From positions 1-43,222 of the forward strand of contig OMID01000036.1 in assembly GCA_900299005.1 (NCBI GenBank): DNA of 43,222 nucleotides, given 5' to 3'. A program made the position numbers and the translations under genes. The notes under the pieces were generated by a model that made no database searches, was not told the DNA's origin, and saw nothing but the letters and a program-made list of their open reading frames with translations. This document shows positions 14,168-30,274 of the stretch, piece by piece. Source of the DNA: Oxalobacteraceae bacterium. Lineage in GTDB: Bacteria > Pseudomonadota > Gammaproteobacteria > Burkholderiales > Burkholderiaceae_D. How positions within the stretch are numbered: position 1 is the first letter of the stretch; each line of letters begins with the position of its first letter.

Positions 14168-14233
14168 TATGTCTACGTGGCATGGCGTGTCCCAATCGGC
14201 GACATTCGCCGCATCCAGAAAAGTGAAGCCCCG

Positions 14234-14992
14234 ATGATTCAGTCCGTCCCCATCACGCCAGCCAGATCGGTAAACCTCAGCGCCCTCAAAGCGAGTTGCT
14301 CGGCCTGCAGCATGCACCAGCTCTGTCTGCCCATGGGGCTGGGCGAAGCGGACATGCACAAGCTCGACGAAATCATCGGCCGACGTCGCAAGGTACCCAA
14401 AGATACTCCGCTTTACCGAATGGACGACCCATTCACGAATCTCTATGCCATACGGCTGGGACATTTCAAGACCTACCAGGTGAGCGTGGGAGGCGATCAG
14501 CAGGTGACCGGTTTTCAAATGGCGGGTGAGCTGCTGGGGATGGATGCAATCAGCACGGATCGTCATCACTGCGATGCTGTCGCGCTGGAAGATAGTGAAG
14601 TCTGCGAAATCCCTTTTTCACGGCTTGAAGAATTATTCGGCACCATTCCCACGCTGCTGCACCATTTCCACCGAATGATGAGTAAAGAAATCACTCGCGA
14701 ACAAAATGTCATGCTCCTGCTGGGCAATATGCGTGCAGAGCAGCGCTTTGCTGCATTCCTGATCAACCTCTCATCACGATACGCTGCGCGAGGCTACTCA
14801 TCGACCACGTTTCAATTGCGCATGTCGCGGGAGGAAATCGGCAATTACCTCGGGTTAACCATTGAAAGCATTAGTCGTCTGCTCTCACGCCTGAAAAAAC
14901 AGGGCCTGCTGAGATTAGCAAACCGCGAGATCGAATTACTCGATCTGGACAGGATGCGTGCACTGGCAGCAGGAACGGAAACCTGCAGCTGA
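14234..14992 (+). CDS. fnr: FNR-type oxygen-sensing transcriptional regulator
   Basis: A 252-residue CRP/FNR-family protein. The [4Fe-4S] ligands of true FNR are present: C22, C25, C31 (CSACSMHQLC) and C124 (SEVCEIPF). After the cyclic-nucleotide-binding-like fold come the dimer helix and a helix-turn-helix with recognition helix LTIESISRLLSRL, carrying the E--SR residues that read TTGA half-sites. ATG 14234 gives an N-terminus of E. coli FNR length; ATG 14177 would add 19 residues. The gene starts 66 nt after pobA on the same strand and lies next to the cbb3 oxidase cluster. Four matching operators occur in the following 16 kb. Confidence 0.93.
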   Translation: MIQSVPITPARSVNLSALKASCSACSMHQLCLPMGLGEADMHKLDEIIGRRRKVPKDTPLYRMDDPFTNLYAIRLGHFKTYQVSVGGDQQVTGFQMAGELLGMDAISTDRHHCDAVALEDSEVCEIPFSRLEELFGTIPTLLHHFHRMMSKEITREQNVMLLLGNMRAEQRFAAFLINLSSRYAARGYSSTTFQLRMSREEIGNYLGLTIESISRLLSRLKKQGLLRLANREIELLDLDRMRALAAGTETCS

Positions 14993-15078: not shown

Positions 15079-15318
15079 TCAGAAAGGTGGCTGAGACGGG
15101 CTCTCAGTCCTGAGAAGATAGATACTCAGCATGCTGGCAAGTGCACCAAAGCTCCAGAAGAAGAAAAAACCTATCGTATATACCGCGATCGCCGGTAGTT
15201 CCCCATGACCGCCAACTATCAGCAGATCTGCGGGATCGAACACCGAGAAAAAGAAACCATCAGCCATCGCAGCCACCAGAAATGATGGCCACAGCACAGC
15301 CATCGCCAGTTTCAGCAT
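15079..15318 (-). CDS. Small two-helix membrane protein after ccoH
   Basis: A 79-residue protein. Two hydrophobic segments are visible (about residues 3-25 and 44-67), with an FFFFW aromatic stretch in the second. The ATG overlaps the ccoH stop by 7 nt and has AAGGAGG 8 nt upstream, so it is a real, coupled gene. I do not recognise a named family. It is the last gene of the ccoG-ccoH unit and may take part in cbb3 assembly; CcoS is already present elsewhere. Confidence 0.8.
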   Translation of the reverse strand: MLKLAMAVLWPSFLVAAMADGFFFSVFDPADLLIVGGHGELPAIAVYTIGFFFFWSFGALASMLSIYLLRTESPSQPPF

Positions 15319-15857
15319 AGCCTATCCTCCTTGGCAGCCTGACCCGACTGCGATACGGCTTGGATGTCGGTACCTATCTGTTGCGGCCATGACCATTGGC
15401 CCTGCAAACGCCAGCTGCCGGCCTCATCCTCGACCTGCACCTGCCAGCGCGCCCGCTCCAGCAAAGGCAGCGCAACCGAGAAGACGCCGCGCTGGTCGGA
15501 CCTGGTCGTGAGCTGGATGTCTTTCTCCGGCAAGGTGGGATGGATCAGCAGAAGCTTGAGCGGCACGTCGTCAGTGGCACCGTGCAGCTGGCCACTGATA
15601 ACGCCGGCGGCGGCATCGTAACGGATCGACAGTGACAGTCCACGACTTGCAGCCGCGCTATCGCGACGAAGATCTTGATTGATAGCTTTGCCTTTTTTGT
15701 AGTAATCATCCACCACCAACGCGTCCGCACTGGAAAAAGAAATCCACATCGTCATCACACCTGCCACTATCACTGTCACAGGACCTGCCATTAGCAACCA
15801 AGGCCAGCGGTGCTTGTACCAGGGATCAGCATGTTTTTCTGTCGGTTCAGCAGGCAT
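15312..15857 (-). CDS. ccoH: CcoH/FixH family cbb3 oxidase assembly protein
   Basis: A 181-residue protein with one N-terminal transmembrane helix (WPWLLMAGPVTVIVAGVMTMW) followed by the FixH motif DALVVDDYYKKGKAIN and a beta-rich periplasmic domain. FixH/CcoH is needed for stable assembly of cbb3 oxidase, probably with CcoI in copper delivery. Start 15857 (MPAEPTEKHA) follows GAGGAAA. It comes 40 nt after ccoG and overlaps the small membrane protein gene. Confidence 0.9.
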   Translation of the reverse strand: MPAEPTEKHADPWYKHRWPWLLMAGPVTVIVAGVMTMWISFSSADALVVDDYYKKGKAINQDLRRDSAAASRGLSLSIRYDAAAGVISGQLHGATDDVPLKLLLIHPTLPEKDIQLTTRSDQRGVFSVALPLLERARWQVQVEDEAGSWRLQGQWSWPQQIGTDIQAVSQSGQAAKEDRLC

Positions 15858-15897
15858 GATTTTCCTCGTGATTTTTTTCGTGAAGTTTTCTCTTTGA

Positions 15898-17298
15898 TCA
15901 GCGTGGCACAAAGAAAACCGCCTTTTCTTTCAGCCTCACCTCGGGAGCATCGGCATCGACCAGGGTAAACCAGATCTTGTTGGACCCAGGGATGCCCTTG
16001 CCATCGGGTGTACGCACATTGACGGGCACGGCACGCGATTCGGTCGCGTCCAGCGCGACCTCTCCGGCACCCTGCAGCAGGATGCCATCGATACCTTCTA
16101 CACCGATTCGATAATGATGAGCCAACTCGTCCGTGTTCATGATCTGCAATCGATAGACATTCTCGATCTGGCCGTTCTCCGCCTCTCGACCCATGGAACC
16201 ACGGTCGCGGATCACATCCATCTTGACCGGTGTGCGCGTAAGCAGCGTGCCAAAAAATACCGAGATGATCATCAAGAGCACTATGCTGTAGATCAGCACT
16301 CGCGGACGCACCATGTGGCGCAGAATCTGCGCCGACGACCAACGGAAATTCTGCGCATGATCGGTCCAATAGCGAACCAGTCCACGTGGCGCGCCGATCT
16401 TGTCCATCACGGCGTTGCACGCATCAACGCAGGCGGCACAACCGATACATTCGTACTGAAGACCCTTGCGGATATCGATACCCGTGGGGCACACCTGCAC
16501 GCACATCGCGCAATCGATGCAGTCGCCCAGAGACTTCATGCTCTCAATGTCCTGCTTGCTGCGCGCCCCGCGCGGCTCGCCGCGATCTTTATCGTAGGTG
16601 ATGATCAGGCTGTCTTTGTCGAACATCGCGCTCTGGAAGCGCGCATAGGGGCACATATATTTGCAGACCTGTTCGCGCATCCAGCCGGCATTGCCATAGG
16701 TAGCAAACGAATAAAACAGAATCCAGAACCATTCCCAGGGTCCCAACGTCAGTGCGGCGACTTCATCGGCAAGCACATGGATGGGGGTGAAATAAGCCAC
16801 GAAAGTAAAGCCGGTCCATAAGGCGACCGCAGCCCAGGCCAGATGCTTGGAAAATTTTCGTGCAAACTTCTCCCCCGACATCGCTTGACGATCGAGCCGC
16901 ATCCTCGCACTGCGCTTGCCTTCCAGCGTACGCTCTATCCACATGAAGATTTCGGTGTAGACCGTCTGTGGGCAGGCAAAACCGCACCAGACTCGTCCAA
17001 AGATTGTCGTAAACAAGAACAGCGAATAGGCACTGATGATCAGCAGCGCAGCAAGATAAATAAAATCCTGCGGCCAGAGCACGAGGCCGAAGATATAAAA
17101 TTTTCGCGCACCGAGATCGAACAAAACCGCTTGTCTGTCATTCCATGACAACCAAGGTAATCCATAAAAAATCAACTGCGTGACCCAGACAAAGAACCAG
17201 CGCAACGAAGCATATTTTCCTTGCACTTCACGCGGGTAGATGTCTTCCCGCGCTTTGTACATCTTGATGACCACGACCTCTGGCGAAGCTCCTTGCAT
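15898..17298 (-). CDS. ccoG: CcoG, cbb3 oxidase accessory ferredoxin-like membrane protein
   Basis: About 466 residues. Several membrane helices with an NapH-like CGFACPQTVYTEIFMW loop precede two 4Fe-4S motifs, CIDCAMCVQVCP and CIGCAACVDACN, and a C-terminal immunoglobulin-like domain. CcoG (RdxA/FixG) has been linked to Cu(II) reduction for cbb3 assembly. ATG 17298 (MQGASPEV) is preferred because AGGA lies 6 nt upstream; ATG 17304 is two codons earlier. The 266-bp gap to ccoP contains a palindromic repeat, so ccoG may have its own promoter. Confidence 0.93.
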   Translation of the reverse strand: MQGASPEVVVIKMYKAREDIYPREVQGKYASLRWFFVWVTQLIFYGLPWLSWNDRQAVLFDLGARKFYIFGLVLWPQDFIYLAALLIISAYSLFLFTTIFGRVWCGFACPQTVYTEIFMWIERTLEGKRSARMRLDRQAMSGEKFARKFSKHLAWAAVALWTGFTFVAYFTPIHVLADEVAALTLGPWEWFWILFYSFATYGNAGWMREQVCKYMCPYARFQSAMFDKDSLIITYDKDRGEPRGARSKQDIESMKSLGDCIDCAMCVQVCPTGIDIRKGLQYECIGCAACVDACNAVMDKIGAPRGLVRYWTDHAQNFRWSSAQILRHMVRPRVLIYSIVLLMIISVFFGTLLTRTPVKMDVIRDRGSMGREAENGQIENVYRLQIMNTDELAHHYRIGVEGIDGILLQGAGEVALDATESRAVPVNVRTPDGKGIPGSNKIWFTLVDADAPEVRLKEKAVFFVPR

Positions 17299-17327
17299 TG
17301 ACATTCCTAGGTAAGCGCTAATTAATA

Positions 17328-17452
17328 AGAGGCTCTTATCAAAATGAGCGCCGCGAAACAGCGCGGTCGCTGACAAGGCGGGGACGCCGCAGACAGTACA
17401 GAGGTACGGCAAGGCGTCCCAACGCGGCCAGTGGCATTTTGATAGAGCCTCT
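17328..17452. repeat. Compound palindromic repeat family, copy B
   Basis: The outer arms AGAGGCTC..TATCAAAATG (17328-17346) and 17435-17452 are inverted repeats with a single 1-nt gap. Inside, GGGACGCC (17381-17388) pairs with GGCGTCCC (17413-17420) around the conserved core CAGACAGTACAGA. It lies between ccoP and ccoG. The whole 125-bp unit can fold into one compound hairpin. Confidence 0.85.
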
Positions 17453-17482
17453 AAAAATCGCAGATTTCTCCTTCGGGAAATA

Positions 17483-17503
17483 GCTGAAAACCTTTGTTTC
17501 AGC
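17483..17503 (-). other. Hairpin GCTGAAA-N7-TTTCAGC downstream of ccoP
   Basis: A perfect 7-bp stem, 62 nt past the ccoP stop. No uninterrupted T-run follows directly, although a short one occurs about 25 nt further on the minus strand. It may be an mRNA-stabilising or weak termination structure at the end of ccoNOQP. Confidence 0.35.
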
Positions 17504-17564
17504 AGGCTCTCACGTTGTACAGCGATGCTGGCTCGCCAAAAAATGGAATTTGTTCAGCATCTCC

Positions 17565-18512
17565 CTAGGGAAGTTTCTGATTGGGCTTGGCGGTCGAAAG
17601 CGTGGAGTTATTCGACAAACCCCAAACATAGGCAGACAGTAAATGTACCTTGGCCTCGCCAAGGAAATCCTCAAAGGCCGGCATGACATTATTGCGCCCG
17701 CCTCGGATAGTTTCCGAGAGGGTCGCCACGCTGCCACCATAGAGCCAAGTCTTGTCGGTCAGATTAGGCGCGCCCACAGCGTGGCTACCCTTGCCTTCGG
17801 CACCATGACAGGCCGCGCAGGCAGCGTACTTCTCTTTGCCAAAGCTGGCCTTGATCGGGTCGGATGACGAACCCGATAATGACAGCACATAGTGCGCGAC
17901 ATTGTCGATATCCTTGTCCGTGCCAACCACAGTACCCATGGGCGGCATGACGCCGTTACGGCCCTTTAGGATAGTCGTCTTGATCACCTCAGGATCACCC
18001 CCATACAGCCAGTCGTTGTCGGTCAGGTTGGGGTAGCCTTTGTTACCACGGGCATCAGAACCATGGCACTGTGCGCAATACGTCAGGAAGAGTCGCTCAC
18101 CAATCGCGCGCGCCTGCGTGTCAAGGGCCAATGTCTTAAAGTCAGTCTGCTGGTATTGGGCAAAGAGCGGACCAAACTCGGCATCTGCCTTCTTGAGCTC
18201 TTCCTGATATTGCGACGTGGAAGTCCAAGCCAGCTTGCCGGCAGAGGCGCCCAGTCCGGGGTACAGCGAGAGGTAGACAATGCCAAAGAGGATGGTGATA
18301 TAGAACAGCCACATCCACCAGCGAGGCATCGGGTTGTTGAGCTCTTCCAGACCTTCATCCCAGGTGTGACCCGTCGTGCCAACCTTGCCATCCTTGGATA
18401 CGTCGGACTTGATGGTCGATTGCGACCACAGCAACCAGCCGCAACCCAGTACCGACGCCAAGGTCAGTACAGTGATGTAGATTCCCCAGAATCCACTCGT
18501 GAAATCAGCCAT
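17565..18512 (-). CDS. ccoP: cbb3 cytochrome oxidase subunit III (di-heme cytochrome c)
   Basis: A 315-residue subunit with two N-terminal transmembrane segments (about 8-30 and 64-84) and two periplasmic c-type hemes: CAQCH at 146-150 and CAACH at 232-236. It passes electrons from soluble cytochromes to CcoO. Start 18512 (MADFTSGFWG) has AGGAG upstream and overlaps the ccoQ stop by 8 nt. The gene closes the ccoNOQP transcription unit. Confidence 0.96.
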   Translation of the reverse strand: MADFTSGFWGIYITVLTLASVLGCGWLLWSQSTIKSDVSKDGKVGTTGHTWDEGLEELNNPMPRWWMWLFYITILFGIVYLSLYPGLGASAGKLAWTSTSQYQEELKKADAEFGPLFAQYQQTDFKTLALDTQARAIGERLFLTYCAQCHGSDARGNKGYPNLTDNDWLYGGDPEVIKTTILKGRNGVMPPMGTVVGTDKDIDNVAHYVLSLSGSSSDPIKASFGKEKYAACAACHGAEGKGSHAVGAPNLTDKTWLYGGSVATLSETIRGGRNNVMPAFEDFLGEAKVHLLSAYVWGLSNNSTLSTAKPNQKLP

Positions 18513-18693
18513 GACCTGACTCCTGCTCCTGGGTATCCGGTTGTTCTTCGTCCGCGAACGGCAGCATCGCAGCCTCCTTGAAATCTTGTGTGCGCTGCGC
18601 ACTGAAGGCCCAGAACACGATCCCGATAAAGGTCATCATGCAGATCACCGTCATCACACTGCGCGCATCAGAAACTCGCTCTAGCAGATCCAT
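18505..18693 (-). CDS. ccoQ: cbb3 cytochrome oxidase subunit IV (CcoQ/FixQ)
   Basis: A 62-residue protein with one membrane helix (SVMTVICMMTFIGIVFWAF) and an acidic C-terminal tail. CcoQ stabilises the cbb3 complex. It starts 2 nt after ccoO with AAGGAGGT before the ATG at 18693, and it overlaps ccoP. Confidence 0.93.
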   Translation of the reverse strand: MDLLERVSDARSVMTVICMMTFIGIVFWAFSAQRTQDFKEAAMLPFADEEQPDTQEQESGHG

Positions 18694-18695
18694 GG

Positions 18696-19310
18696 TTACC
18701 TCCTTGCCTTGATCTGGATGCCCAACCCTTGCAGATAAGCGACCAATGCATCCAGCTCGGACTTGCCTTCGAGTTCCTTGGGCGCAGCGGCAATCTGCTC
18801 GTCGGTATACGGATCCCCAAGGCGCTTGAGTGCTTTTAGCCGGGGCACAATCGCTGGTGCATCGAGTGCAGTCGTGGTCAGCCATGGATACGCTGGCATA
18901 TTCGATTCGGGCACGAGATCACGCGGGTTATTCAGGTGTGCGCGGTGCCAATCGTCGCTGTAGCGTCCACCCACTCGAGCGAGATCCGGACCCGTACGCT
19001 TGGAGCCCCATTGAAACGGACGGTCATACACAAACTCTCCTGCGACGGAGTAATGGCCATAGCGTTCGGTCTCCGCGCGGAATGGGCGGATCATCTGCGA
19101 ATGACAGTTGTAGCAGCCCTCGCGTACATAGATGTCGCGGCCGGCCAGTCGCAGCGGACTGTAGGGTGTCAGCCCCGCGACTGGCTCGGTGGTTGATTTC
19201 TGGAAGAACAACGGCACGATCTCTACCAGTCCGCCGATGCTGACCACCAGAATCACCAGCAAAATCAGCAGCAGGGGTTTGCGTTCAATTTGATCATGTG
19301 TGAATTTCAT
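18696..19310 (-). CDS. ccoO: cbb3 cytochrome oxidase subunit II (mono-heme cytochrome c)
   Basis: A 204-residue membrane-anchored cytochrome c. It has an N-terminal helix ([20 protein letters not shown]), heme motif CYNCH at 66-70, and a Met ligand probably in [10 protein letters not shown]. It carries electrons from CcoP to the CcoN catalytic centre. The start has GGAG upstream. It lies 15 nt after ccoN. Confidence 0.96.
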
Positions 19311-19325
19311 GTGATTCTCCGAGAG

Positions 19326-20753
19326 TCAGGCATGCGCGCCCGTCATTGCTGGGATGCGAGCATCGACGGGATGACTACCACTGACCGTTTTGAAGCTGTT
19401 GTAAGCCATGATCAGCATGCCTATCAGATACAAGGTGCCGCCCGCGAGGCGAATCACGTAATACGGGAAAGTAGCCTTGACACTTTCGACGAAGGAATAG
19501 GTCAGCGTGCCGTCGGCATTCACCGCACGCCACATCAGGCCCTGCATCACGCCGGCGATCCACATCGCGGCGATATACAGCACGATACCGATGGTCGCGA
19601 TCCAGAAGTGCCATTCGATCAGACGCGTGCTCCACATGGCTTTCTTGCCCGACAGGCGCGGCAGCAGGTAGTAGATCGATCCCATTGATACCAGGCCCAC
19701 CCAGCCCAGCGCCCCGGAGTGAACGTGGCCGACGGTCCAGTCGGTGTAGTGTGAGAGCGCATTGACCGTCTTGATGGACATCATCGGACCTTCAAAGGTC
19801 GACATGCCATAGAACGACAAAGAGACGATCAGGAACTTCAGGATAGGATCATGGCGCAGCTTGTGCCATGCGCCCGACAAGGTCATGATGCCATTGATCA
19901 TGCCGCCCCAGCTTGGCGCCAGCAAAATGAGCGAGAACACCATGCCCAGCGACTGCGCCCAGTCCGGCAGTGCAGTGTAGTGTAGATGGTGCGGGCCTGC
20001 CCACATGTAGGTGAAGATCAGCGCCCAGAAATGGACGATCGAGAGACGATAAGAAAAAACCGGGCGCTCTGCCTGCTTGGGAATGAAGTAGTACATCATG
20101 CCGAGGAAGCCTGCCGTGAGGAAGAACCCGACCGCGTTATGGCCGTACCACCACTGAATCATCGCGTCCTGCACACCGGTGTACGCCGAGTAGGATTTGG
20201 TGAGCGTGGCTGGCATGGCCGCCGAATTGACGATATGAAGAATCGCAACGGTCAGAATGAAGGCCCCATAGAACCAGTTGGCGACGTAGATGTGTGACAC
20301 TCTGCGCTTCCACAGGGTGCCAAAGAACACCACAGCGTAAGACACCCAGACCAGGGCGATCAGGATATCAATGGGCCATTCGAGTTCTGCATACTCCTTG
20401 CCAGACGTCATACCCAAGGGCAGCGTGATCGCGGCTGCGAGAATCACCAGCTGCCAGCCCCAGAAGGTAAAGGCCGCAAGCGTGTCCGAGAACAACCGCG
20501 TCTGGCAAGTGCGCTGCACGACATAGTAGGAGGTGCCAAACAAGGCTGAACCACCAAATGCGAAAATCACGGCATTCGTGTGCAGCGGACGCAAGCGACC
20601 ATAGGTCAGCCACGGCACATCAAAATTCAAGCCGGGCCACGCCAGTTGAGCGGCAATGATCACCCCCACCAGCATGCCCACCACACCCCACACCACCGTC
20701 ATGACTGCAAACTGCCTTACAACCCGGTAGTTGTAGTTCAGTGTTGTTTCCAC
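19326..20753 (-). CDS. ccoN: cbb3 cytochrome oxidase catalytic subunit I
   Basis: A 475-residue heme-copper oxidase subunit with about 12 membrane helices. Conserved metal-site regions include [15 protein letters not shown] and [16 protein letters not shown], plus the HSGALGW segment. It reduces O2 to water with high affinity and is used under low oxygen. The start is GTG at 20753, with AAGGGAG spaced 5-6 nt upstream. A near-perfect FNR site at 20816-20829 precedes it, so induction by FNR under oxygen limitation is predicted. Confidence 0.96.
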
Positions 20754-20815: not shown

Positions 20816-20829
20816 TTGACTTGAGTCAA
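20816..20829. promoter_or_regulatory. FNR box upstream of ccoNOQP
   Basis: TTGAC-TTGA-GTCAA, a perfect 5-bp palindrome fitting TTGA-N6-TCAA. It is centred about 70 bp upstream of the ccoN GTG, which is compatible with a class II (-41.5) activation site. Confidence 0.82.
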
Positions 20830-20863: not shown

Positions 20864-21049
20864 TTAGTGCGTCCTCTCCTGTTCAGACTCAACGGTTTCT
20901 GCATACACGCTGTCGTCGTCTTGCAGCAGGCGCATGCCAGGCCCCTCCAGATCATCGAACTGACCACTGTCCACGGCGCGAAAGAACACCCACAGCGCCA
21001 GAAAAACAAGGGCGACGGACAGCGGTATCAATAAGTACAAAGACTCCAT
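20864..21049 (-). CDS. ccoS: cbb3 oxidase maturation protein CcoS
   Basis: A 61-residue protein with one membrane helix at the N-terminus (LYLLIPLSVALVFLALWVFF) followed by the CcoS motif DSGQFDDLEGPGMRLL. CcoS is required for cofactor insertion into cbb3 oxidase. Its ATG shares one base with the ccoI stop (TGATG), so the two are translationally coupled. Confidence 0.93.
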   Translation of the reverse strand: MESLYLLIPLSVALVFLALWVFFRAVDSGQFDDLEGPGMRLLQDDDSVYAETVESEQERTH

Positions 21050-23496
21050 CAGAGCACCTTGTCCGAGTGCTTCGGCAAACGCTGCAGGCGCAGCGCATTG
21101 ACCACCACCAGTGCCGAGCTGGCAGACATGCCCAGTCCTGCCATCCAGGGTGCCAGCAGGCCCGATGCAGCTGCAGGTATGGCGGCCAGATTGTAGACGG
21201 TGGCCCAGCCGAGATTCTGACGTATGACGCGCATGCAGGCCGATGCAGCGTCAGCAGCTTGTGTTAATGAGGACAGTTGCCCGGAAAGCAGCACGGCATC
21301 AGAATGCGTCTGCGCCAGCGCTGCGCCCGAGCCCATGGCAAAAGACACATCTGCCGCACGAAGCACTGCGGCGTCATTGATCCCGTCACCCACCATCACG
21401 ACCACCGCACGATTGCGCTGCAGCTCTTGGACGTAGTCCAGCTTTTGCTGCGGCAGCATGCCGCCTTGCGCAGCATTCATGGACAACGAGGACGCTAGCT
21501 GATTAACCATACCCGGCGCATCGCCGGAGAGCAGCAGGGTGGTCATGCCGCGCGCCCTGAAATAGCGCACGGTCTCGGCAGCGTCTATCCTGAGCCTGTC
21601 TGCCAGATCGAATCGCGCGTGCCATCGATCCTGGCTACCAAGATAGACGGATGTCTCATGGACCGGCTCCCCGGGCAAAGTAGCCTTGCCGGAGAGCGCG
21701 GCAACAAATGATGCGCTCCCGATCCGATAACGCCTACCATTCACCTGAGCCTCCAGACCCATACCGGCATGATGGATCACCGAGGTGGCAGTCGACGACG
21801 GTACTGCACGCTCGTTGGCCGCCCGCACCAACCCCTGCGAGAGCGGATGCGCGCTTCCCGTGCCTAAAGCGGCTGCGATACTCATCGCCGCTTCCTCGCT
21901 CATATCGTCAAGCATCATCAGCTGCCGTACGCTTGGCTTGCCCTCGGTCAGTGTGCCTGTTTTGTCGAACACGACATGGGTTGCCCGATGAAGGGTTTCC
22001 AGCACGTGCGGTTGAATTACCAGCACCCCCTGGCTGAGCAGACGATCCGTCGCTGCCGCAAGCGCTGAGGGCGTGGCAAGCGACAAGGCGCAAGGACAAG
22101 ACACCACTAGCACCGCCATGGCGACCGCCCATGCTCGAGAGGCATCATGCCAACTCCAGAAGACGAGCACACCCAAGCTAAGCAAAAGCAAGGCCGCGAT
22201 AAACCAGGCTGCGACCTGATCAGCCCACTGAGACAGGCTCGGCTTGCCCTGCCCGGCACGCTCGATCAACCGTATCAGAGACGACAGGGTGCTGTCCTTG
22301 GCAACTTTTTCCACGCGCAGCGTGACAGGCTGACTGATGTTCACCGCACCCCCGGCAAGCCGCTCACCGACTTGTCTGGCTTGCGGCTGGCTTTCACCGG
22401 TGAGCAGCGACAGGGCTACCGTGGTTTCACCCTCGACGATCACGCTGTCCGCAGGAATTGCCTCCCCCGGTTTGACAAGCACCATGTCGCCAGCCCGCAA
22501 GGTGACCGCAGCCACCAACCTCGCCTCGCGAGTGGAGGGAAAACCGCTCAGCAGCCAGGCAGAAGCCGGCAAGGCACGCTGCAGGGTCTCGAGCGAAGCT
22601 GCGGCCTTGCGACGTGCCAGCAGCTCCACATAACGGCTGGCCAGTAGAAGGAAAATGAACATGGTGACCGAGTCGAAGTAGACGTCACCGTCGCCGGCGA
22701 TCGTGTTCCAGGTGCTGCCGATGAAAGCGGAGGCGATACCCAAGGCCACTGGCACATCCATCCCCAGCACACGCTGTTGCAGATGGGCCCATGCGCCTCT
22801 GAAAAATGGCTGTGCCGAGTAAATCACGGCAGGCACGGCAAGACAGAAACTGGCCCAACGCATCAGTTGCATCATGTCCGGCTCAATCTCGCCAGCGTCT
22901 GCCATGTAGACAGGAACGGCCACCATCATCACCTGCATCATCGACAAACCGGCGACAAACAAACGCTTGAACATGGCACGCGCATTCTTGCGCAGCAGTT
23001 CACCATGCTGAATCGGATCGAACGGGTAGGCGACATAGCCCATTTCACGTACTGCGTGCAAGATATCGCTGGGCTTGCACCGCGATGTATCCCAGCGCAC
23101 GTGCAATTTCTCATTCGCGACATTCAGATCGACTGTCTGCAGTCCGGGGACCTGCGACAAGCGGCGCTCGATCAACCAGACGCAGGCAGCGCAGCGTATT
23201 CCCTCGATGGACAAGGTTGCCTCACCGCCGCCGTCGCTACTGATAAATTGTGCGGACAGCTCAGGTGTGTCATACAGTGCCAGCGCATCAGGCAGCGGCT
23301 CGGCAAGGACCTGCGGCAGGGTCTGTCGGTTGCGATAGTACTCGGTGAGTCCGCTGTCGACGATTGCGCGAGCCACAGCCTGACAACCCGGACAACACAC
23401 CGGCTGTTCAAGATCATCAATGCGGACATGCCAGCCACCACCCTTGGCGACGGGAAGACCGCAATGAAAACAGGAGGTCGTGATGATGGCACTCAT
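21049..23496 (-). CDS. ccoI: Copper-translocating P-type ATPase for cbb3 assembly (CcoI/FixI)
   Basis: An 815-residue P1B-type ATPase. In order it has an N-terminal Cys-rich metal segment (CFHCGLP, CCPGCQAV), an HMA domain with IRCAACVWLIE, membrane helices, the TGES actuator, the transport motif SCPCALS, the phosphorylation motif DKTGTLTEG and the hinge GDGINDAAVL. It exports copper to the periplasm for the CuB centre of cbb3 oxidase. Start 23496 (MSAIITTSCFHCG) agrees with the family N-terminus. It follows the TauE/SafE-like gene by 13 nt and is coupled to ccoS. Confidence 0.95.
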   Translation of the reverse strand: MSAIITTSCFHCGLPVAKGGGWHVRIDDLEQPVCCPGCQAVARAIVDSGLTEYYRNRQTLPQVLAEPLPDALALYDTPELSAQFISSDGGGEATLSIEGIRCAACVWLIERRLSQVPGLQTVDLNVANEKLHVRWDTSRCKPSDILHAVREMGYVAYPFDPIQHGELLRKNARAMFKRLFVAGLSMMQVMMVAVPVYMADAGEIEPDMMQLMRWASFCLAVPAVIYSAQPFFRGAWAHLQQRVLGMDVPVALGIASAFIGSTWNTIAGDGDVYFDSVTMFIFLLLASRYVELLARRKAAASLETLQRALPASAWLLSGFPSTREARLVAAVTLRAGDMVLVKPGEAIPADSVIVEGETTVALSLLTGESQPQARQVGERLAGGAVNISQPVTLRVEKVAKDSTLSSLIRLIERAGQGKPSLSQWADQVAAWFIAALLLLSLGVLVFWSWHDASRAWAVAMAVLVVSCPCALSLATPSALAAATDRLLSQGVLVIQPHVLETLHRATHVVFDKTGTLTEGKPSVRQLMMLDDMSEEAAMSIAAALGTGSAHPLSQGLVRAANERAVPSSTATSVIHHAGMGLEAQVNGRRYRIGSASFVAALSGKATLPGEPVHETSVYLGSQDRWHARFDLADRLRIDAAETVRYFRARGMTTLLLSGDAPGMVNQLASSLSMNAAQGGMLPQQKLDYVQELQRNRAVVVMVGDGINDAAVLRAADVSFAMGSGAALAQTHSDAVLLSGQLSSLTQAADAASACMRVIRQNLGWATVYNLAAIPAAASGLLAPWMAGLGMSASSALVVVNALRLQRLPKHSDKVL

Positions 23497-23509
23497 CTTT
23501 GAAAAATAT

Positions 23510-24268
23510 TCATGGCACCGGCACAATACACAGGATGTCCAGCCAGCCATGCGAGGCACCGGTCGCCGCCCGGTAGAGCCCCAGCAGACCAAACATCAAT
23601 ACCAGCCAACCTGCCAGCGTTCGCACGACCGGCGTTTGCAAGTTGGCCTGCAGCCGACTTCCCAGCATGCCCATGGAGAACAATAACGGCAAAGTGCCCA
23701 GACCAAAGGCCAGCATCACGCTCGCCCCGTGCGCCGCCGAACCGGTAACCAAGGCAGTCATCAACACACTGTAGACCATGCCGCACGGTACCCAACCCCA
23801 GAGTGCACCCAATGCCAGCGCCTGCCACACCGTCGTGACCGGGAGACAGTGGCGACTCAGCGGTTGCAGACCTTGCCATGCCCACTGCCCGAGCTTTTCA
23901 ACACGCGATAGTCCCTGCCAGGCGCCCATCAGGGTGAGCCCTAAGGCGACCAGCATCAGGTTGGCGAGCCAATAGCCTCCACGCTGAAGCATGGCAATAT
24001 TCATCATCGCGGGGATATTGCCCAGCAGACCGGCAAGCGCGCCGGCAATCAGGTAACTGCCGATCCTGCCGGCGTTAAACGCGAGCACACGCAGCCCGCT
24101 GCCCGTCGCTTCGCTGAACCAAGAATCCTGAGTCAGCACGGGTACGGGAAAAGGACGACGGGGCGTAGCTACAGAAAAGGCACCGACGATACCGCCGCAC
24201 ATGCCAACACAATGCACGCCACCCAGTAGTCCGATCAGAAAAATCGGCAAGAGCCCAAAGACATTCAC
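23510..24268 (-). CDS. TauE/SafE-like (heavy-metal-linked) membrane protein of the cco cluster
   Basis: About 252 residues, strongly hydrophobic, six or more predicted helices. The first helix carries GGVHCVGMCGG, the signature of the 'sulfite exporter TauE/SafE' branch found next to ccoI in many bacteria. The GTG at 24268 places this helix at the N-terminus and avoids overlap with hemN; an open frame extends upstream to 24427 but would overlap hemN by 124 nt. Homologues near copper ATPases have been suggested to act in copper handling for cbb3; substrate unknown. Confidence 0.8.
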   Translation of the reverse strand: MNVFGLLPIFLIGLLGGVHCVGMCGGIVGAFSVATPRRPFPVPVLTQDSWFSEATGSGLRVLAFNAGRIGSYLIAGALAGLLGNIPAMMNIAMLQRGGYWLANLMLVALGLTLMGAWQGLSRVEKLGQWAWQGLQPLSRHCLPVTTVWQALALGALWGWVPCGMVYSVLMTALVTGSAAHGASVMLAFGLGTLPLLFSMGMLGSRLQANLQTPVVRTLAGWLVLMFGLLGLYRAATGASHGWLDILCIVPVP

Positions 24269-24303
24269 GACAGGTCCGAACGAGTCAGAAGTAAGGGGAA
24301 TGC

Positions 24304-25695
24304 TCAGATAGTACGGGAATAACGCGCAGGCTCCGAGGATAGCCGCCGTGCGTTTTGCAAGTGGCGGTCGAAGACCATGCAGATATTGCGGATCAACAGA
24401 CGTCCTTTCAGAGTGACGCTGAGCCATTCCTCGTCGATCGTGAGGAGTCCCATCTCTGCCAACTCGCGCAGCTGCAAAAGCTCGGTTGCAAAATAGACCT
24501 GAAAGGTAATCGGATAGGCTTGTTCAAGCGAGCGGACAGATAATTCGAAATTACACATCAGCATCTGAATGATAAAACGGCGCAGCATATCATCCAGGGT
24601 GAGCTTGTAGCCACGCGCGACCGGCAGCTCACCCTGATCAAGACGATCGTAGTAGGCATCGAGTGTCTTCACATTCTGGCTGTAGCACATGCCCACCGAA
24701 CTGATCGCCGAGACGCCACAAGCGATCAGATCGGCTTCTGCATGAGTGGAATAGCCCTGAAAATTCCGGTGCAGCCTGCCTTGCCGCTGCGCGACTGCCA
24801 GCTCGTCGTCGGGTTTGGCAAAATGATCCATGCCAATGTACACATAGCCTGCCTCGTTAAGCCGCTTGATGCACATGGCCAGCATGTCGAGCTTGACATC
24901 CGAATCAGGCAGATCCATTTCCCGAATCCGACGCTGTGGCTTGAACAAATGGGGGAGGTGGGCATAGTGATAAACAGCGATGCGATCCGGATCGGCTGCG
25001 ATCAGCGTGTCCAGCGTCTGCGCCATTGACTCGAGGCTCTGCTTGGGCAAGCCGTAAATCAGATCAATGCTGATCGAGCGGAAGCTCGCTTCGCGCGCCG
25101 CACGCAGGATATCCAGTGTCATGACTTCCGGCTGAAGCCGATTGACCGCTTTCTGTACCTCGGGGTCGATATCCTGCACGCCCAGACTAATGCGATTGAA
25201 ACCCTGATCACGCAGTCGATGAATACGCGCTGCCGAGACACTGCGAGGATCTACCTCGATTGAGTATTCACCTTTTTCGTCATCGCTCAGCAAGAAGCAG
25301 CGGCGGAGGTGTCGCATCAGGTCGTGCATTTGCTCATCAGACAAATAGGTCGGCGTACCGCCGCCGAAATGAAGCTGCTCAACGTGATTAGCGCCGGCAA
25401 ACAGTTTGCCCTGCATCTCGATCTCACGCTTGAGATAAGCCAGATAGGTGGCCGCCTTCTCACGGCGTTTGGTGACGATCTTGTTGCAACCGCAGTAGTA
25501 GCAAACGGTATCGCAGAATGGTATATGGACATACAGTGACAATGGATGTCGTGTACCGCGTGCACGCGTATGCGAGACTGCATGCAGATAGTCGCGATAA
25601 CTGAACGCTTCGGAAAAGCGGTCGGCGGTAGGGTAAGAGGTATATCGGGGACCGGACTGGGTAAGCCGGCTGATCAGTTCAGCATCAAACGCCAT
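24304..25695 (-). CDS. hemN: Oxygen-independent coproporphyrinogen III dehydrogenase
   Basis: A 463-residue radical SAM enzyme. The cluster motif CxxxCxxC is at C61, C65 and C68 with C70 following (CDTVCYYCGC). It decarboxylates coproporphyrinogen III to protoporphyrinogen IX without O2 and supplies heme under low oxygen, for example for cbb3. ATG 25695 is chosen: GAGG lies 6 nt upstream and the N-terminus aligns with E. coli HemN (GPRYTSYPTA at residues 15-24). Other ATGs at 25722 and 25734 are possible. An FNR box lies 128 bp upstream. Confidence 0.95.
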   Translation of the reverse strand: MAFDAELISRLTQSGPRYTSYPTADRFSEAFSYRDYLHAVSHTRARGTRHPLSLYVHIPFCDTVCYYCGCNKIVTKRREKAATYLAYLKREIEMQGKLFAGANHVEQLHFGGGTPTYLSDEQMHDLMRHLRRCFLLSDDEKGEYSIEVDPRSVSAARIHRLRDQGFNRISLGVQDIDPEVQKAVNRLQPEVMTLDILRAAREASFRSISIDLIYGLPKQSLESMAQTLDTLIAADPDRIAVYHYAHLPHLFKPQRRIREMDLPDSDVKLDMLAMCIKRLNEAGYVYIGMDHFAKPDDELAVAQRQGRLHRNFQGYSTHAEADLIACGVSAISSVGMCYSQNVKTLDAYYDRLDQGELPVARGYKLTLDDMLRRFIIQMLMCNFELSVRSLEQAYPITFQVYFATELLQLRELAEMGLLTIDEEWLSVTLKGRLLIRNICMVFDRHLQNARRLSSEPARYSRTI

Positions 25696-25822
25696 TGGGT
25701 ACCTCTGTGGCAGGCTTGTCGTCATGACTGTCATCCTCGATTGCTCCGAAACTAGCGAGCACTGGCAAGGAGCGAGTGCCTCGGGCTGGATCGCAGTCTA
25801 GAGAGGCAGTGCGGTAATTACT

Positions 25823-25836
25823 TTGACTTAAGTCAA
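25823..25836. promoter_or_regulatory. FNR box upstream of hemN
   Basis: TTGAC-TTAA-GTCAA, a perfect palindrome over all 14 bp, 128-141 bp upstream of the hemN start, in the gap after pat. Confidence 0.82.
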
Positions 25837-25897: not shown

Positions 25898-28588
25898 CTA
25901 GTTTTGTAAACCGAGGCACAATTTGACGGTGTTAAGGGTGGGTTCAAAATGCGTCTTAAATCCAAAGCCTCGCACTAGATGGAGCAAGCCTTGATTGTCT
26001 GACAAAGACTCGCCAACAATTTGCCGCGTCCCGCGCTGCCGACAATACGCAAGCAGCTTGCTCATCAATCGGTGTCCCAGACCCCGTCCTTTGAGATCCG
26101 AGCGGATGATAATGGCGAATTCGGCATCCTGATTGTCAGGATCTGCAACACTGCTGACAACGCCCAGCAGCTCGTCATACCCATCTTCGCCTTTGCGCAC
26201 CGCGATAAAGGTCATCTCACGGTCGTAATCGATCTGGGTCATGCGTGCCAGCTGCGAAGGATGCAGCACTTGCTGGTGCGTGAACATGCGAAAACGCACA
26301 TCGAGTGGATCAAGTGCCGTGAAAAACCGCTGATATTCTTCGCCATCCTCAGGTCGCACCGGACGCAGCAGTAGCGGCATGCCCAGCCATTGCACCCATT
26401 CCTCCTGCTCTTGCGGGTAGGGTCGTATCGCCAGCCGGTCATCTGCGCAATGAGCACCCTGCGATGCAATGCGAACCCGCGCATCCAGTACGATCACCCC
26501 CTGTGCATCGGCCAGCACCGGGTTCAGATCAAGTTCGATCACCTCGGGCAGACAGGTTGCTATCTGACTGATCTGAATCAGCAAATGACTCAGCGCATCC
26601 ATATCGACCGGTGGACGATCCCGGTAACCGCAAAGCAAGTGAAACACCCGAGTTCGCGACATCAGATCGTGCGCAAGCACCTTGTTGAGCGGTGGGAGAC
26701 CCAGCGCGTGATCATGCATTACTTCGACCGAGATACCGCCCAGCCCGAATAAAACGATTGGGCCGAACAAGGGATCTGAACTGATACCTGCAATGAGCTC
26801 TTGCGCGTCCGGACGTCGCACCATTGACTGCACGGTAAAGCCTGTCAGACTTGCCTCCGGTCGCTGCGAGTGCACACGTTGTTGTATCGCGATAGCGGCT
26901 TGCTCCACCGCGTCGCCATCGCTCAGATTAAGCATCACACCACCGACCTCGGTCTTGTGGCTGATATCGGGCGAGAGCACTTTAACTACGACCGGATAAC
27001 CTACCTCTTCGGCCAGTTGACGTGCCTCGGCAGGCGAGGCTGCCACGCGGGTCTCGACGACTGGGATTCGACAAGCCTTCATCAAGGCCTTGGACTCGGG
27101 CTCCGTCAGTAGCGTACGCTCTTCGGACACCACCTGAGCGATGAGCGCTCGAGCTCTCTTCAGATCCATCGGTTCGCTCAGTGAGTCCGCAGCCGGGACC
27201 TGCATCAGCAGGCGCTGATTGCGGCGATATTCCACGACTTGCAAGAAAGATTCTACGGCTCGCTCTGGCGTACTGAACTGGGGAATGTCGGATTGTGAAA
27301 ACAAGTGCCGCGCCTCTGCGACCGAGGCATCACCCATCCAGCACGCAAGCAGCAGCTGATCCGACTGACAGGCGATAGGCGCCACCATGCGAGCGATATC
27401 AGAACTTGAGACGATCGCAGTGGGCGAATGAATGAACAGCACCGGATTATCGGGCTGCTTCTCCAAAAGAATGGACAAGGTCTGTCGGTAGCGCTCGGCA
27501 GGAGCGTCACCGACGATATCGACCGGATTCCCTTGCGACCAGTGGGTCGGGAGTATCTGATCGAGTGCCTGTTGCGTCTGCGCTGATAGTGACGCCAGAC
27601 GGCCACTGCCAAGGACCAAGGCATCGGTTGCCAGGATGCCCGGCCCACCGCCATTGGTCAGTATCAGCAGGTCCTCACCCTTCAGTGGACGCGCGCGGGC
27701 GAGCATCTCGGCTGCATCAAACAAGGCCTCTGTAGTCATCACACGCAGCATGCCGGCGCGGCGAAATGCAGCATCATAGACAGCATCCACACCCGTCATC
27801 GCACCAGTGTGCGAAGCAGCAGCGCGAGCACCTTCGGGAACCCTGCCCACCTTCACTACGAGCACAGGTTTGTTGCGCGACGCTGCGCGAGCCGCCGACA
27901 TGAACTTGCGTGCCCCTCGAATAGCTTCAAGGTACAACAAAATCGCGCTGGTATGAGAATCTGTCGCCAGATAATCGAGCACATCACCAAAATCCACATC
28001 GGCGACATCGCCCAGAGAGACACCATGCGATAAGCCTATTCCCCGTGAGCGTGCCCAATCCAGCATGGCAGTCAGCAATGCGCCTGACTGAGAGACAAAG
28101 GCAATCTTCCCCGGCAAGGCATCGGTCTGCGAAAAACTGGCATTAAGCCGACTATGTGGGGAAATCATGCCTACGCAATTAGGCCCCAGAATACGCATCA
28201 CAAACGGCCTTGCCGCATCGAGCATCGCCTGCCGGTGGCTGCGGCCATCCCCATGGTCGGCATCCATACCCGCCGACAGCACGACGGCAGCGCGGGTACC
28301 CCTTTGGGCGAGTTGCGCTATCAAACCCGGGACAGCCTGTGGCGGTGTGGCGATGACGGCCAGTTCGGGTACGGTCGGCAGTCTCGATACGTCGGGGTAA
28401 ACGGTCAGCCCCTGCAGCTGGGTGTAGTGGGGATTAACGGCCATTACTGCGCAACCCTTGCCAGAACCATGCTGCCCAGCGAGAAGATTGGAAAGCACGG
28501 TTGCACCCACGCTGTGCGGACGATCACTGGCGCCGATCAGCACAACGGATTTGGGCGCAAACAGGTAAGACAGATTGCGAGTGCTCAT
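25898..28588 (-). CDS. Pat/YfiQ-type protein lysine acetyltransferase (ACS-like + GNAT)
   Basis: An 896-residue multidomain protein. The N-terminal half is an NDP-forming acyl-CoA synthetase-like region: CoA-binding (about 8-130, SVVLIGASDRPHSVG) and ligase-CoA segments (about 150-300, with SHTGAMTG). An ATP-grasp region follows (about 480-700, YPVVVKVLSPDISHKTEVGG), then a C-terminal GNAT domain whose acetyl-CoA loop KGRGLG is near residue 835. This is the architecture of Salmonella Pat / E. coli PatZ, which acetylate lysines, including that of acetyl-CoA synthetase. Retained ligase activity cannot be excluded. An FNR box lies 77-90 bp upstream. Confidence 0.88.
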   Translation of the reverse strand: MSTRNLSYLFAPKSVVLIGASDRPHSVGATVLSNLLAGQHGSGKGCAVMAVNPHYTQLQGLTVYPDVSRLPTVPELAVIATPPQAVPGLIAQLAQRGTRAAVVLSAGMDADHGDGRSHRQAMLDAARPFVMRILGPNCVGMISPHSRLNASFSQTDALPGKIAFVSQSGALLTAMLDWARSRGIGLSHGVSLGDVADVDFGDVLDYLATDSHTSAILLYLEAIRGARKFMSAARAASRNKPVLVVKVGRVPEGARAAASHTGAMTGVDAVYDAAFRRAGMLRVMTTEALFDAAEMLARARPLKGEDLLILTNGGGPGILATDALVLGSGRLASLSAQTQQALDQILPTHWSQGNPVDIVGDAPAERYRQTLSILLEKQPDNPVLFIHSPTAIVSSSDIARMVAPIACQSDQLLLACWMGDASVAEARHLFSQSDIPQFSTPERAVESFLQVVEYRRNQRLLMQVPAADSLSEPMDLKRARALIAQVVSEERTLLTEPESKALMKACRIPVVETRVAASPAEARQLAEEVGYPVVVKVLSPDISHKTEVGGVMLNLSDGDAVEQAAIAIQQRVHSQRPEASLTGFTVQSMVRRPDAQELIAGISSDPLFGPIVLFGLGGISVEVMHDHALGLPPLNKVLAHDLMSRTRVFHLLCGYRDRPPVDMDALSHLLIQISQIATCLPEVIELDLNPVLADAQGVIVLDARVRIASQGAHCADDRLAIRPYPQEQEEWVQWLGMPLLLRPVRPEDGEEYQRFFTALDPLDVRFRMFTHQQVLHPSQLARMTQIDYDREMTFIAVRKGEDGYDELLGVVSSVADPDNQDAEFAIIIRSDLKGRGLGHRLMSKLLAYCRQRGTRQIVGESLSDNQGLLHLVRGFGFKTHFEPTLNTVKLCLGLQN

Positions 28589-28664
28589 TGGCAGCGTGCC
28601 CCTTGGCGATCTCTCTGCGAAGACCTTGGCGCCCGAGCTTGGGTCGTCTCACTTGGCGGTTAGC

Positions 28665-28678
28665 TTGACCTCAGTCAA
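28665..28678. promoter_or_regulatory. FNR box between pat and the two-domain usp
   Basis: TTGAC-CTCA-GTCAA. It is 77 bp from the pat start (minus) and 133 bp from the usp start (plus), and could serve either or both. Confidence 0.78.
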
Positions 28679-28810: not shown

Positions 28811-29650
28811 ATGTCATATAAGACTCTTCTGGTGCAGGTGGATCAGTCCTCGCAGTCGGCAGAGCGCGTGCAACTCGCCGCAGCGCTGGCTGAGGCAGAG
28901 GGAGCTCACGTCATCGGTACAGCGATGACGGGTATCTCCAGAGTTGTGTTCGAGGCCGGCACATTCAATCAGCATGACCCCGCTTTTGATCATCATGTGC
29001 GGGCACTGCGCCAGTATGCAGACCACAGCCTCGAGCTGTTCGAGACGGCGACCTCGAAGCAGCCCAGCCTGTCTGCCGAATCCCGGCTACTCGACGATGA
29101 TGCTGTTGGTGGAATCTGCTTGCAGGCACGCTACGCCGATCTGGTGATGATCGGCCAATTCGATTCCTCAGCGGGCATCCCGGGCCTGATGCCGAGTTTT
29201 CCCGAATCGGTGGTCATGAATTCTGTTCGCCCTGTGATGCTCTTGCCGAGTATCTATCGGTTCCATACGCTACCCTCGCACGCGGTCGTGGCATGGGATG
29301 GCAGCCTGAACGCCGCACGCGCCATTGCCGGTGCGTTGCCGCTGCTTGAACGTGCGCAGAAGGTCAGCCTTGCGATCCTCAATCCCGCCAAACGACCCGA
29401 TGCCCACGGGGCTCAACCCGGTGCTGATATGGCGCTGTACTTATCGCGCCATGGTGTGAAAGTCGAGGTGATGGTCCGGGAAACCACCATCGAGGCGGGT
29501 GAGGCGCTGCTGTCACTGTGCGCTGACGAAGGCGCTGACCTGCTCGTGATGGGCGCCTTCGGACATACTCGCTTCAGGGAATTGCTACTCGGCGGCGCGA
29601 CGCGTCAGATACTGGACTCAATGACAGTCCCAGTGCTCATGGCTCACTGA
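28811..29650 (+). CDS. Universal stress protein, two UspA domains
   Basis: A 279-residue protein made of two tandem Usp domains (about 1-145 and 150-279). The second ends with GAFGHTRFRELLLGGATRQI, close to the G-2x-G-9x-G(S/T) ATP-binding motif; the first domain lacks an obvious version. Usp proteins help survival under starvation and low oxygen. It is divergent from pat with a shared FNR box between them. Confidence 0.87.
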   Translation: MSYKTLLVQVDQSSQSAERVQLAAALAEAEGAHVIGTAMTGISRVVFEAGTFNQHDPAFDHHVRALRQYADHSLELFETATSKQPSLSAESRLLDDDAVGGICLQARYADLVMIGQFDSSAGIPGLMPSFPESVVMNSVRPVMLLPSIYRFHTLPSHAVVAWDGSLNAARAIAGALPLLERAQKVSLAILNPAKRPDAHGAQPGADMALYLSRHGVKVEVMVRETTIEAGEALLSLCADEGADLLVMGAFGHTRFRELLLGGATRQILDSMTVPVLMAH

Positions 29651-29752: not shown

Positions 29753-30190
29753 TCAACGATACACGATGACGGGCATCGTGGCGTGCGCCAGTACCCGCTG
29801 AGTCTCGCTGCCCAGCAGCAGCTTGTCGAGACCACGTCGGCCATGCGAGGCAATCCAGATCGCATCGCACTGCGTGTCGCGGGCGGTTGCCAGTATCTCT
29901 TCATAGGGATGCACGCCGCGCGTGGCAATCGGCTCGCAAGCCACCCTTGCTCCGGCAGCCAGCTGCTTCACCTTGTCCACGTGCGACTGCGCCGTCTGAT
30001 CCTGCGCTTCCTCGTAGGCTGACAAATCGACCATCGCGCCGGCCTCCGGCATCAGCATGTACGGATACAACTGGGCCACCGATAGCGCTACGATGCTGGC
30101 GCCGGTCGTGGCCGCAAATTCGATGGCCGCTTTGGCCGAAGTCTCGGACACCGGGGAACCGTCGGTCGGCACCAGGATTTTCTTAAACAT
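29753..30190 (-). CDS. Universal stress protein, single UspA domain
   Basis: A 145-residue single-domain Usp. It begins MFKKILVPTDGSP and has the ATP-binding signature SHGRRGLDKLLLGSETQRVL near the C-terminus, so nucleotide binding is likely. It is preceded by an FNR box 71-84 bp upstream. It converges with the two-domain usp and lies downstream of srkA on the same strand. It resembles stress proteins induced by oxygen limitation in other bacteria. Confidence 0.9.
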   Translation of the reverse strand: MFKKILVPTDGSPVSETSAKAAIEFAATTGASIVALSVAQLYPYMLMPEAGAMVDLSAYEEAQDQTAQSHVDKVKQLAAGARVACEPIATRGVHPYEEILATARDTQCDAIWIASHGRRGLDKLLLGSETQRVLAHATMPVIVYR

Positions 30191-30260: not shown

Positions 30261-30274
30261 TTGACCTCGGTCAA
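30261..30274. promoter_or_regulatory. FNR box upstream of single-domain usp
   Basis: TTGAC-CTCG-GTCAA, 71-84 bp upstream of the usp start and just before the srkA stop codon at 30280. Confidence 0.8.

Follow-up and report, generated by a model that had tools for sequence, protein, structure and literature searches.

A Pat-type acyl-CoA synthetase-acetyltransferase fusion retaining both phospho-histidine positions, beside an FNR-type box in a low-oxygen gene cluster of an Oxalobacteraceae bacterium

Positions 1 to 43,222 of contig OMID01000036.1, from the Oxalobacteraceae bacterium assembly GCA_900299005.1 (hereafter the window, 43,222 nucleotides in all), include a pat-type gene (25898..28588, minus strand) whose 896-amino-acid product, as judged from its open reading frame (ORF), Pfam and PDB alignment, is a nucleoside-diphosphate (NDP)-forming acyl-CoA synthetase fused to a C-terminal GNAT domain. 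It is possible, and is suggested here tentatively, that this Pat-type fusion is linked to FNR and that its synthetase half still works as an ADP-forming acetyl-(acyl-)CoA synthetase, such that acetyl-CoA would be turned into acetate with a gain of ATP and the GNAT half would silence Acs. The sequence-based parts of this proposal are the order of the domains, the catalytic residues that remain, an FNR-type box, a nearby FNR gene, the target motif in Acs, and an acetate kinase that was searched for in the assembly and not found; from these, we infer that both halves are active, which way the reaction runs, that acetate is the substrate, and that the gene responds to oxygen.

Pfam recognizes CoA_binding_2, Succ_CoA_lig, Ligase_CoA_2, ATP-grasp_5, and GNAT in the protein, and the window protein has the subdomain order of ADP-forming acyl-CoA synthetases (CoA-binding, CoA-ligase, ATP-grasp). 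In the PDB, the protein matches two Pat chains best (9it0, E 7.8e-205), followed by 8wzu, the 4-hydroxybutyrate-CoA ligase [ADP-forming] Nmar_0206, to which the ligase half shows 40%-class similarity across its whole length. In that alignment, with positions counted by hand, H260 (codon 27809..27811, minus strand) occupies the swinging-loop phospho-histidine position opposite H256 of Nmar_0206, and H544 (codon 26957..26959, minus strand) the second phospho-histidine position, opposite H535. H256 and H535 are the two phosphorylated histidines of Nmar_0206 (PMC11494057; this and the other papers cited are drawn on in excerpt), and the same two-histidine scheme, His257 alpha and His71 beta, is seen in the Pyrococcus enzyme (PMC4500148). 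The GNAT domain covers about residues 736-882 (25943..26383, minus strand) and has the glutamate of type I GNAT acetyltransferases, with E823 in the same column as E809 of E. coli PatZ. The residue set of ADP-forming acyl-CoA synthetases is completed in the window protein by E221 and D687, the conserved Glu and Asp that we take to have a role in these enzymes.

These residues are widely conserved. Among the homologues considered, which come from named records and are the best 80 of 589 relatives, E221 is kept in 78, H260 in 76, H544 in 77, D687 in 79, and E823 in 78; among 18 further relatives, the counts are 18 for H260, 16 for H544, and 17 each for D687 and E823. Overall, H260 is present in 94 of 98 homologues, some of which may be the same organisms, and in all 10 readable proteins from congeners. 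The swinging loop is also better conserved on average than the GNAT half (0.79 vs 0.59). The homologues without H260 are four from Massilia (L044, L045, L048, and L050; L numbers denote loci and G numbers genomes of the genus), a loss independent of that in E. coli; in the solved Pat chains and E. coli PatZ, the first phospho-histidine is removed by a short deletion. In a FastTree tree, PatZ is nested among the histidine-bearing rows, its branch being long (1.09 vs a median of 0.29), and loss of the histidine needs at least two changes.

The Pat class has been described as having an inactive ligase half that lacks the catalytic histidine and acts as a sensor (PMC8556138). Since H260 is retained, the window protein departs in this respect from the “dead ligase” of the textbook, and since its catalytic histidines are kept, unlike in E. 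coli PatZ, the gene may encode an acetate/ATP enzyme first. An earlier, sequence-only reading of the window had connected the gene to protein acetylation and acetyl-CoA control; the account was incomplete in that it overlooked the catalytic histidines of the ligase half. Inspection of the ligase residues, which that reading proposed as a way to judge whether the synthetase half is active, finds H260 and H544 in place.

The proposed link to oxygen begins with a regulator gene at 14177..14992 (plus strand), whose product has a cNMP-binding (cyclic nucleotide-binding) fold, a Crp helix-turn-helix, and a C-x2-C-x5-C motif. The highest-ranking PDB matches of this product are FNR-type regulators, namely Aliivibrio-type FNR chains (E 1e-60), with CSACSMHQLC aligned to the N-terminal cysteines of those chains and ESISR in the recognition helix; C-x2-C-x5-C and ExxSR are presumably FNR-type motifs here. 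The genome encodes another strong Crp-type protein, whose ORF lacks the cysteine group. Scanned with zero mismatches, the pattern TTGAYNNNNRTCAA has four sites in the window (20816, 25823, 28665, and 30261) against 0.17 expected, and none of 100 shuffles reaches four. The sites are TTGACTTGAGTCAA upstream of ccoN (20816..20829), TTGACTTAAGTCAA upstream of hemN (25823..25836), TTGACCTCAGTCAA in the intergenic region between pat and a universal stress protein (Usp) gene (28665..28678), and TTGACCTCGGTCAA upstream of a single-domain Usp gene (30261..30274), the last with TATAGT 21 bp past the box. In the whole 2.9-Mb assembly, TTGAYN4RTCAA occurs at nine sites vs six for the reversed control pattern, hardly above background, but four of the nine, namely all four perfect TTGACN4GTCAA sites of the assembly, fall inside 9.5 kb of the window. 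Matches with one mismatch number 46 genome-wide vs 47 for the reversed control, and a loose scan for TTGATN4ATCAA with two mismatches gave 16 vs 16.35 expected, not above chance. Because the one-mismatch count equals that of the control, the evidence is the local cluster of boxes and not a genome-wide excess, and a wider regulon is unreadable from the assembly.

The pat-type gene carries two marks of an FNR-controlled gene: a perfect box upstream and an FNR-type protein encoded in the genome. ORFs, Pfam, and the perfect box at 28665-28678 also confirm the claim of the sequence-only reading that the Pat-like gene and a divergent two-domain Usp (28811..29650, plus strand; two Usp stretches by Pfam) share an intergenic region with one FNR box.

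Boxes recur upstream of pat among the homologues. Specifically, a perfect box lies within 300 bp upstream in 13 of the 80, whereas of 4000 windows drawn at random from these loci, 1.7% have one. Within 200 bp, perfect boxes precede 13 of 80 pat starts vs 29 of 515 other ORF starts of the same loci (P 5e-4), and boxes with at most one mismatch precede 22 of 80 vs 43 of 515 (P 4e-7); these box statistics ignore kinship among loci and the selection of the best 80 of 589 relatives, and the 515 control starts include other FNR-type genes. A divergent Usp is present in only three of the 13 homologues with a perfect box (L031, L033, and L037), and tblastn finds none in the other ten, so the pat-type gene can have a box of its own. 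At L032 and L061, the upstream ORF runs in the same direction as pat, and the remaining perfect-box homologues have another or an unclear neighbor by mechanical ORF calling. Within the genus, 12 genomes have pat, the present one included, and a perfect box is found in ten of them, a one-mismatch box in G014, and none in G007. FNR control of pat is therefore predicted as plausible, with boxes recurring upstream of homologues that have no adjacent Usp, and is likely in the family; the box in the window may serve pat, the Usp gene, or both. As a separate observation, in Noviherbaspirillum loci L034, L035, and L036, pat is preceded by a two-domain Usp gene that is read in the same direction and ends close by, with no perfect box.

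The acetate genes provide a further line of evidence. Neither an acetate kinase nor a CobB-type sirtuin was found on searching the bacterium's own assembly, which is 99.91% complete. The genome does encode an Acs above cut-off with the motif PKTRSGKIMRR, two PTA-domain matches, the second of which we take to be maeB from the look of its sequence, and three HDAC-type deacetylase matches. In a set of 21 genomes of the genus, pat occurs alone in 11 (G000, G002, G006, G007, G008, G013, G014, G015, G017, G018, and G019), acetate kinase alone in eight (G001, G003, G005, G009, G010, G011, G016, and G020), both in G012, and neither in G004, a near-exclusion with a Fisher p of 3.7e-4. Of the 14 genomes with a completeness of 90% or more and a contamination of 5% or less, six have pat only, six acetate kinase only, one both, and one neither.

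FNR-type boxes also precede the acetate kinase genes of the genus. A perfect box was found upstream of pta-ackA in four of the nine acetate kinase loci fetched (G003, G012, G016, and G020), and none upstream of that of G005; in G001, G009, G010, and G011, the start of the operon is ambiguous or outside the coverage. The boxes are located at L207 5723, L209 141, L210 8277, and L212 2406, two of them in a region common to a divergent small ORF. From the look of their sequences, the neighbors of ackA are presumably phaC, fabI, MaoC-Pta, and an ion channel. FNR sites upstream of pta have been described in Accumulibacter (PMC6446978), and phaC2-fabI-Hsero_2407 is a target of Fnr1 in Herbaspirillum (PMC5934665), where gene order suggests that Hsero_2407 would be Pta. 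With boxes before pta-ackA and before pat, low-oxygen acetate formation may be a matter for FNR in both kinds of genomes, by means of different enzymes.

At the junction of hemN and the Usp gene, pat and the box belonging to it are either both there or both missing, as one unit. In congeners that lack pat and keep hemN (G001, G009, and G020), hemN adjoins the two-domain Usp gene with a single box between them, at a distance from hemN that is constant (91.5-92.5 bp), which the distance from Usp is not. At loci L180, L182, L183, and L197, which show hemN and Usp side by side without pat and with a single box, pat plus its box resembles an indel. Some copies in this region are altered or cut. For example, G013 pat, the eleventh congener protein, is broken by an in-frame TAG (L119) and G017 hemN has an in-frame TGA (L184), each an assembly error or decay; hemN of G019 (L122) is reduced to a weak remnant beside pat, and G008 pat reaches the end of its contig.

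In the mechanism proposed, a fall in oxygen would lead the FNR encoded nearby to switch on the cluster, including the pat-type gene. The ligase half would then convert acetyl-CoA, ADP, and phosphate to acetate, CoA, and ATP via H260~P and H544~P, giving the cell a supply of ATP at a time of limited respiration. The GNAT half would acetylate the lysine of AMP-forming Acs (PKTRSGKIMRR) and block the enzyme, with the result that two ATP equivalents would not be spent returning the acetate. A bolder version is rather improbable: that this is an oxygen-controlled acetate switch in one polypeptide, with the futile cycle barred, that it has replaced acetate kinase more than once in the genus, and that most non-enteric Pat-type proteins are active ligases, PatZ being a worn-out exception.

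Several observations weigh against an active, FNR-linked acetate enzyme. With respect to the protein, the NCBIfam cut-offs of named ADP-forming ligases (acetate, 3-hydroxypropionate, and 4-hydroxybutyrate) are missed (471.9/1300, 450.7/567.15, 387.2/1200, and 348.4/1300), and with scores so far under the cut-offs, the ligase substrate is not named by curated models. H544 is lost in five of 98 relatives, three among the 80 homologues and two among the further 18 (L132, whose loop is strongly divergent and whose histidine alignment is doubtful, and L137), and in the G019 protein (L122), 18 residues are missing immediately behind SHT in the swinging loop. With respect to the box, a -10 at class II spacing (about -41.5) from the pat/usp box has 2 of 6 matches in both directions, vs 4, 4, and 5 of 6 in the same test on the boxes of hemN, cco, and uspF, respectively, and a search of the intergenic region between pat and usp in the window turned up no sigma-70-like promoter. 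The box-Usp distance (about 140, 142, and 152) is also steadier than the box-pat distance (83, 67, and 71) in the window, G017, and G008, respectively. With respect to the exclusion, one genome (G012) has both genes. In a tree of 19 of the 21 genomes, pat changes three times and acetate kinase five times, and three independent pairs give, on average, 2.4 opposite, 0 same, and 0.6 that do not differ (the median p of the sign test is 0.5, short of significance). Finally, the bacterium's own pta is severed by the end of a 3793-bp contig; Pta is thus present, and ackA, its usual neighbor, may sit in the gap.

Other explanations are conceivable. It is somewhat doubtful that the protein behaves as an enteric-type Pat, in which the ligase half would only sense acetyl-CoA, FNR would raise the lysine acetyltransferase when oxygen is low so that Acs and further enzymes are damped, and the histidines would serve only CoA or nucleotide binding or folding. 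Full-length similarity to the solved Pat chains, the GNAT glutamate, the target lysine in Acs, the three HDAC-type deacetylase matches, and the reviewed sensor role of the Pat ligase half (PMC8556138) all agree with it, as does the presence of BCAM2710, a “Protein acetyltransferase” by annotation name alone, among the micro-oxia-responsive genes of Burkholderia cenocepacia H111 (values 19.5 and 1.9; PMC3759415). However, the stated cause of an inactive ligase half, the missing histidine, does not apply to the window protein, the swinging loop is better conserved than the GNAT half, PatZ stands on its long branch within a histidine-bearing tree in which the histidine was lost at least twice, and a sirtuin was not found in the genome. 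By comparison, it is quite possible that pat and acetate kinase merely happen to exclude each other, through shared ancestry and draft assemblies, and that the two genes have no bearing on one another. The independent changes are few, and the own pta runs off its contig; G004, the one genome with neither gene, has a hemN contig that starts inside hemN, where pat would follow, and the acetate kinases of G001 and G011 are partial matches. Yet the 6/6/1/1 split holds in the 14 good genomes, G014 is without acetate kinase and is given as 100% complete, and three congeners have hemN joined to Usp with pat absent between them.

A third alternative concerns the box, which would serve the Usp promoter only, with pat independent of FNR and adjacent by chance; the sequence-only reading had named this as a refutation of its proposal, and we consider it unlikely. 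FNR-controlled Usps are well known (PMC5934665, PMC4634722, and PMC4263372), and the steadier box-Usp spacing noted above is in its favor. So is the position of the box only 22 bp (G012) and 21 bp (G014) from the start of pat, which is too near for pat to be activated from an upstream start and fits Usp control or repression better. It is disfavored by the ten perfect-box homologues without a divergent Usp, including the two with a co-directional upstream ORF, and by five congeners (G002, G006, G013, G018, and G019) in which the box is held at 51 bp from pat, whereas Usp is about 467 (G002), 534 (G006), 224 (G013), or 386 bp (G018) away, or is not found inside the 1.5-kb flank (G019). Moreover, the single box of the pat-less congeners keeps its spacing to hemN and not to Usp, and the -10 in the Usp direction of the window is no better than that in the pat direction. 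FNR control of the pat-type gene, as the sequence-only reading proposed, is supported in part, by the FNR-type regulator in the window and by the boxes before Usp-less homologues.

The setting of the pat-type gene is an fnr-cco-ccoI-hemN-usp low-oxygen gene cluster. On the minus strand, it comprises the cbb3 oxidase genes ccoN, ccoO, ccoP, and ccoG with a FixH-type gene (15312..20753), a CcoI-like copper P-type ATPase gene (21049..23592; the true start is probably internal to the ORF), a gene for a DsbD_2-type membrane protein (23510..24427; Pfam), hemN for oxygen-independent coproporphyrinogen III oxidase (24304..25734; TIGR00538 above cut-off), and the single-domain Usp gene (29753..30190; Pfam). 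The hemN-DsbD_2-ccoI order matches that of hemN2-Hsero_3206-fixIS in Herbaspirillum seropedicae, which is a direct target of Fnr1 together with fixNOP, two Usps, and dksA-phaC2-fabI-Hsero_2407; the portions of that text covered mention no Pat-type gene in the Fnr1 regulon (PMC5934665).

Among known systems, Pat/PatZ (YfiQ) of Salmonella and E. coli, a type I GNAT lysine acetyltransferase, has the same domain order over its full length, and the positions of the GNAT glutamate, E221, H544, and D687 are kept in the window protein. The differences are that E. coli PatZ is without the swinging-loop histidine represented here by H260, and that the window gene has an FNR-type box and a genome in which no CobB-type sirtuin was found. 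Going by the title of a 2011 paper listed among the references of PMC4299603, PatZ is reportedly under cAMP-CRP control. The ADP-forming acyl-CoA synthetases (Pyrococcus ACD, Nitrosopumilus Nmar_0206 (8wzu), and the Korarchaeum-type 4xyl) align end to end with the ligase half, including both phospho-histidines; relative to them, the window protein adds the GNAT domain, falls below the NCBIfam cut-offs, is bacterial, and is encoded in an FNR-type cluster. Among the open-license matches listed, no paper was found on a Pat under FNR control or on a ligase-GNAT fusion with an active ligase, and neither is described in the excerpts of PMC3759415, PMC8556138, PMC6640162, PMC5934665, PMC4634722, PMC6446978, PMC4263372, PMC11494057, PMC3942289, PMC4299603, PMC4500148, or PMC5862806. 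If the histidine-bearing majority proves active, a large number of proteins that now go by the name of acetyltransferases would also serve energy metabolism, and ATP-yielding acetate formation in bacteria would gain a second route beside Pta-AckA.

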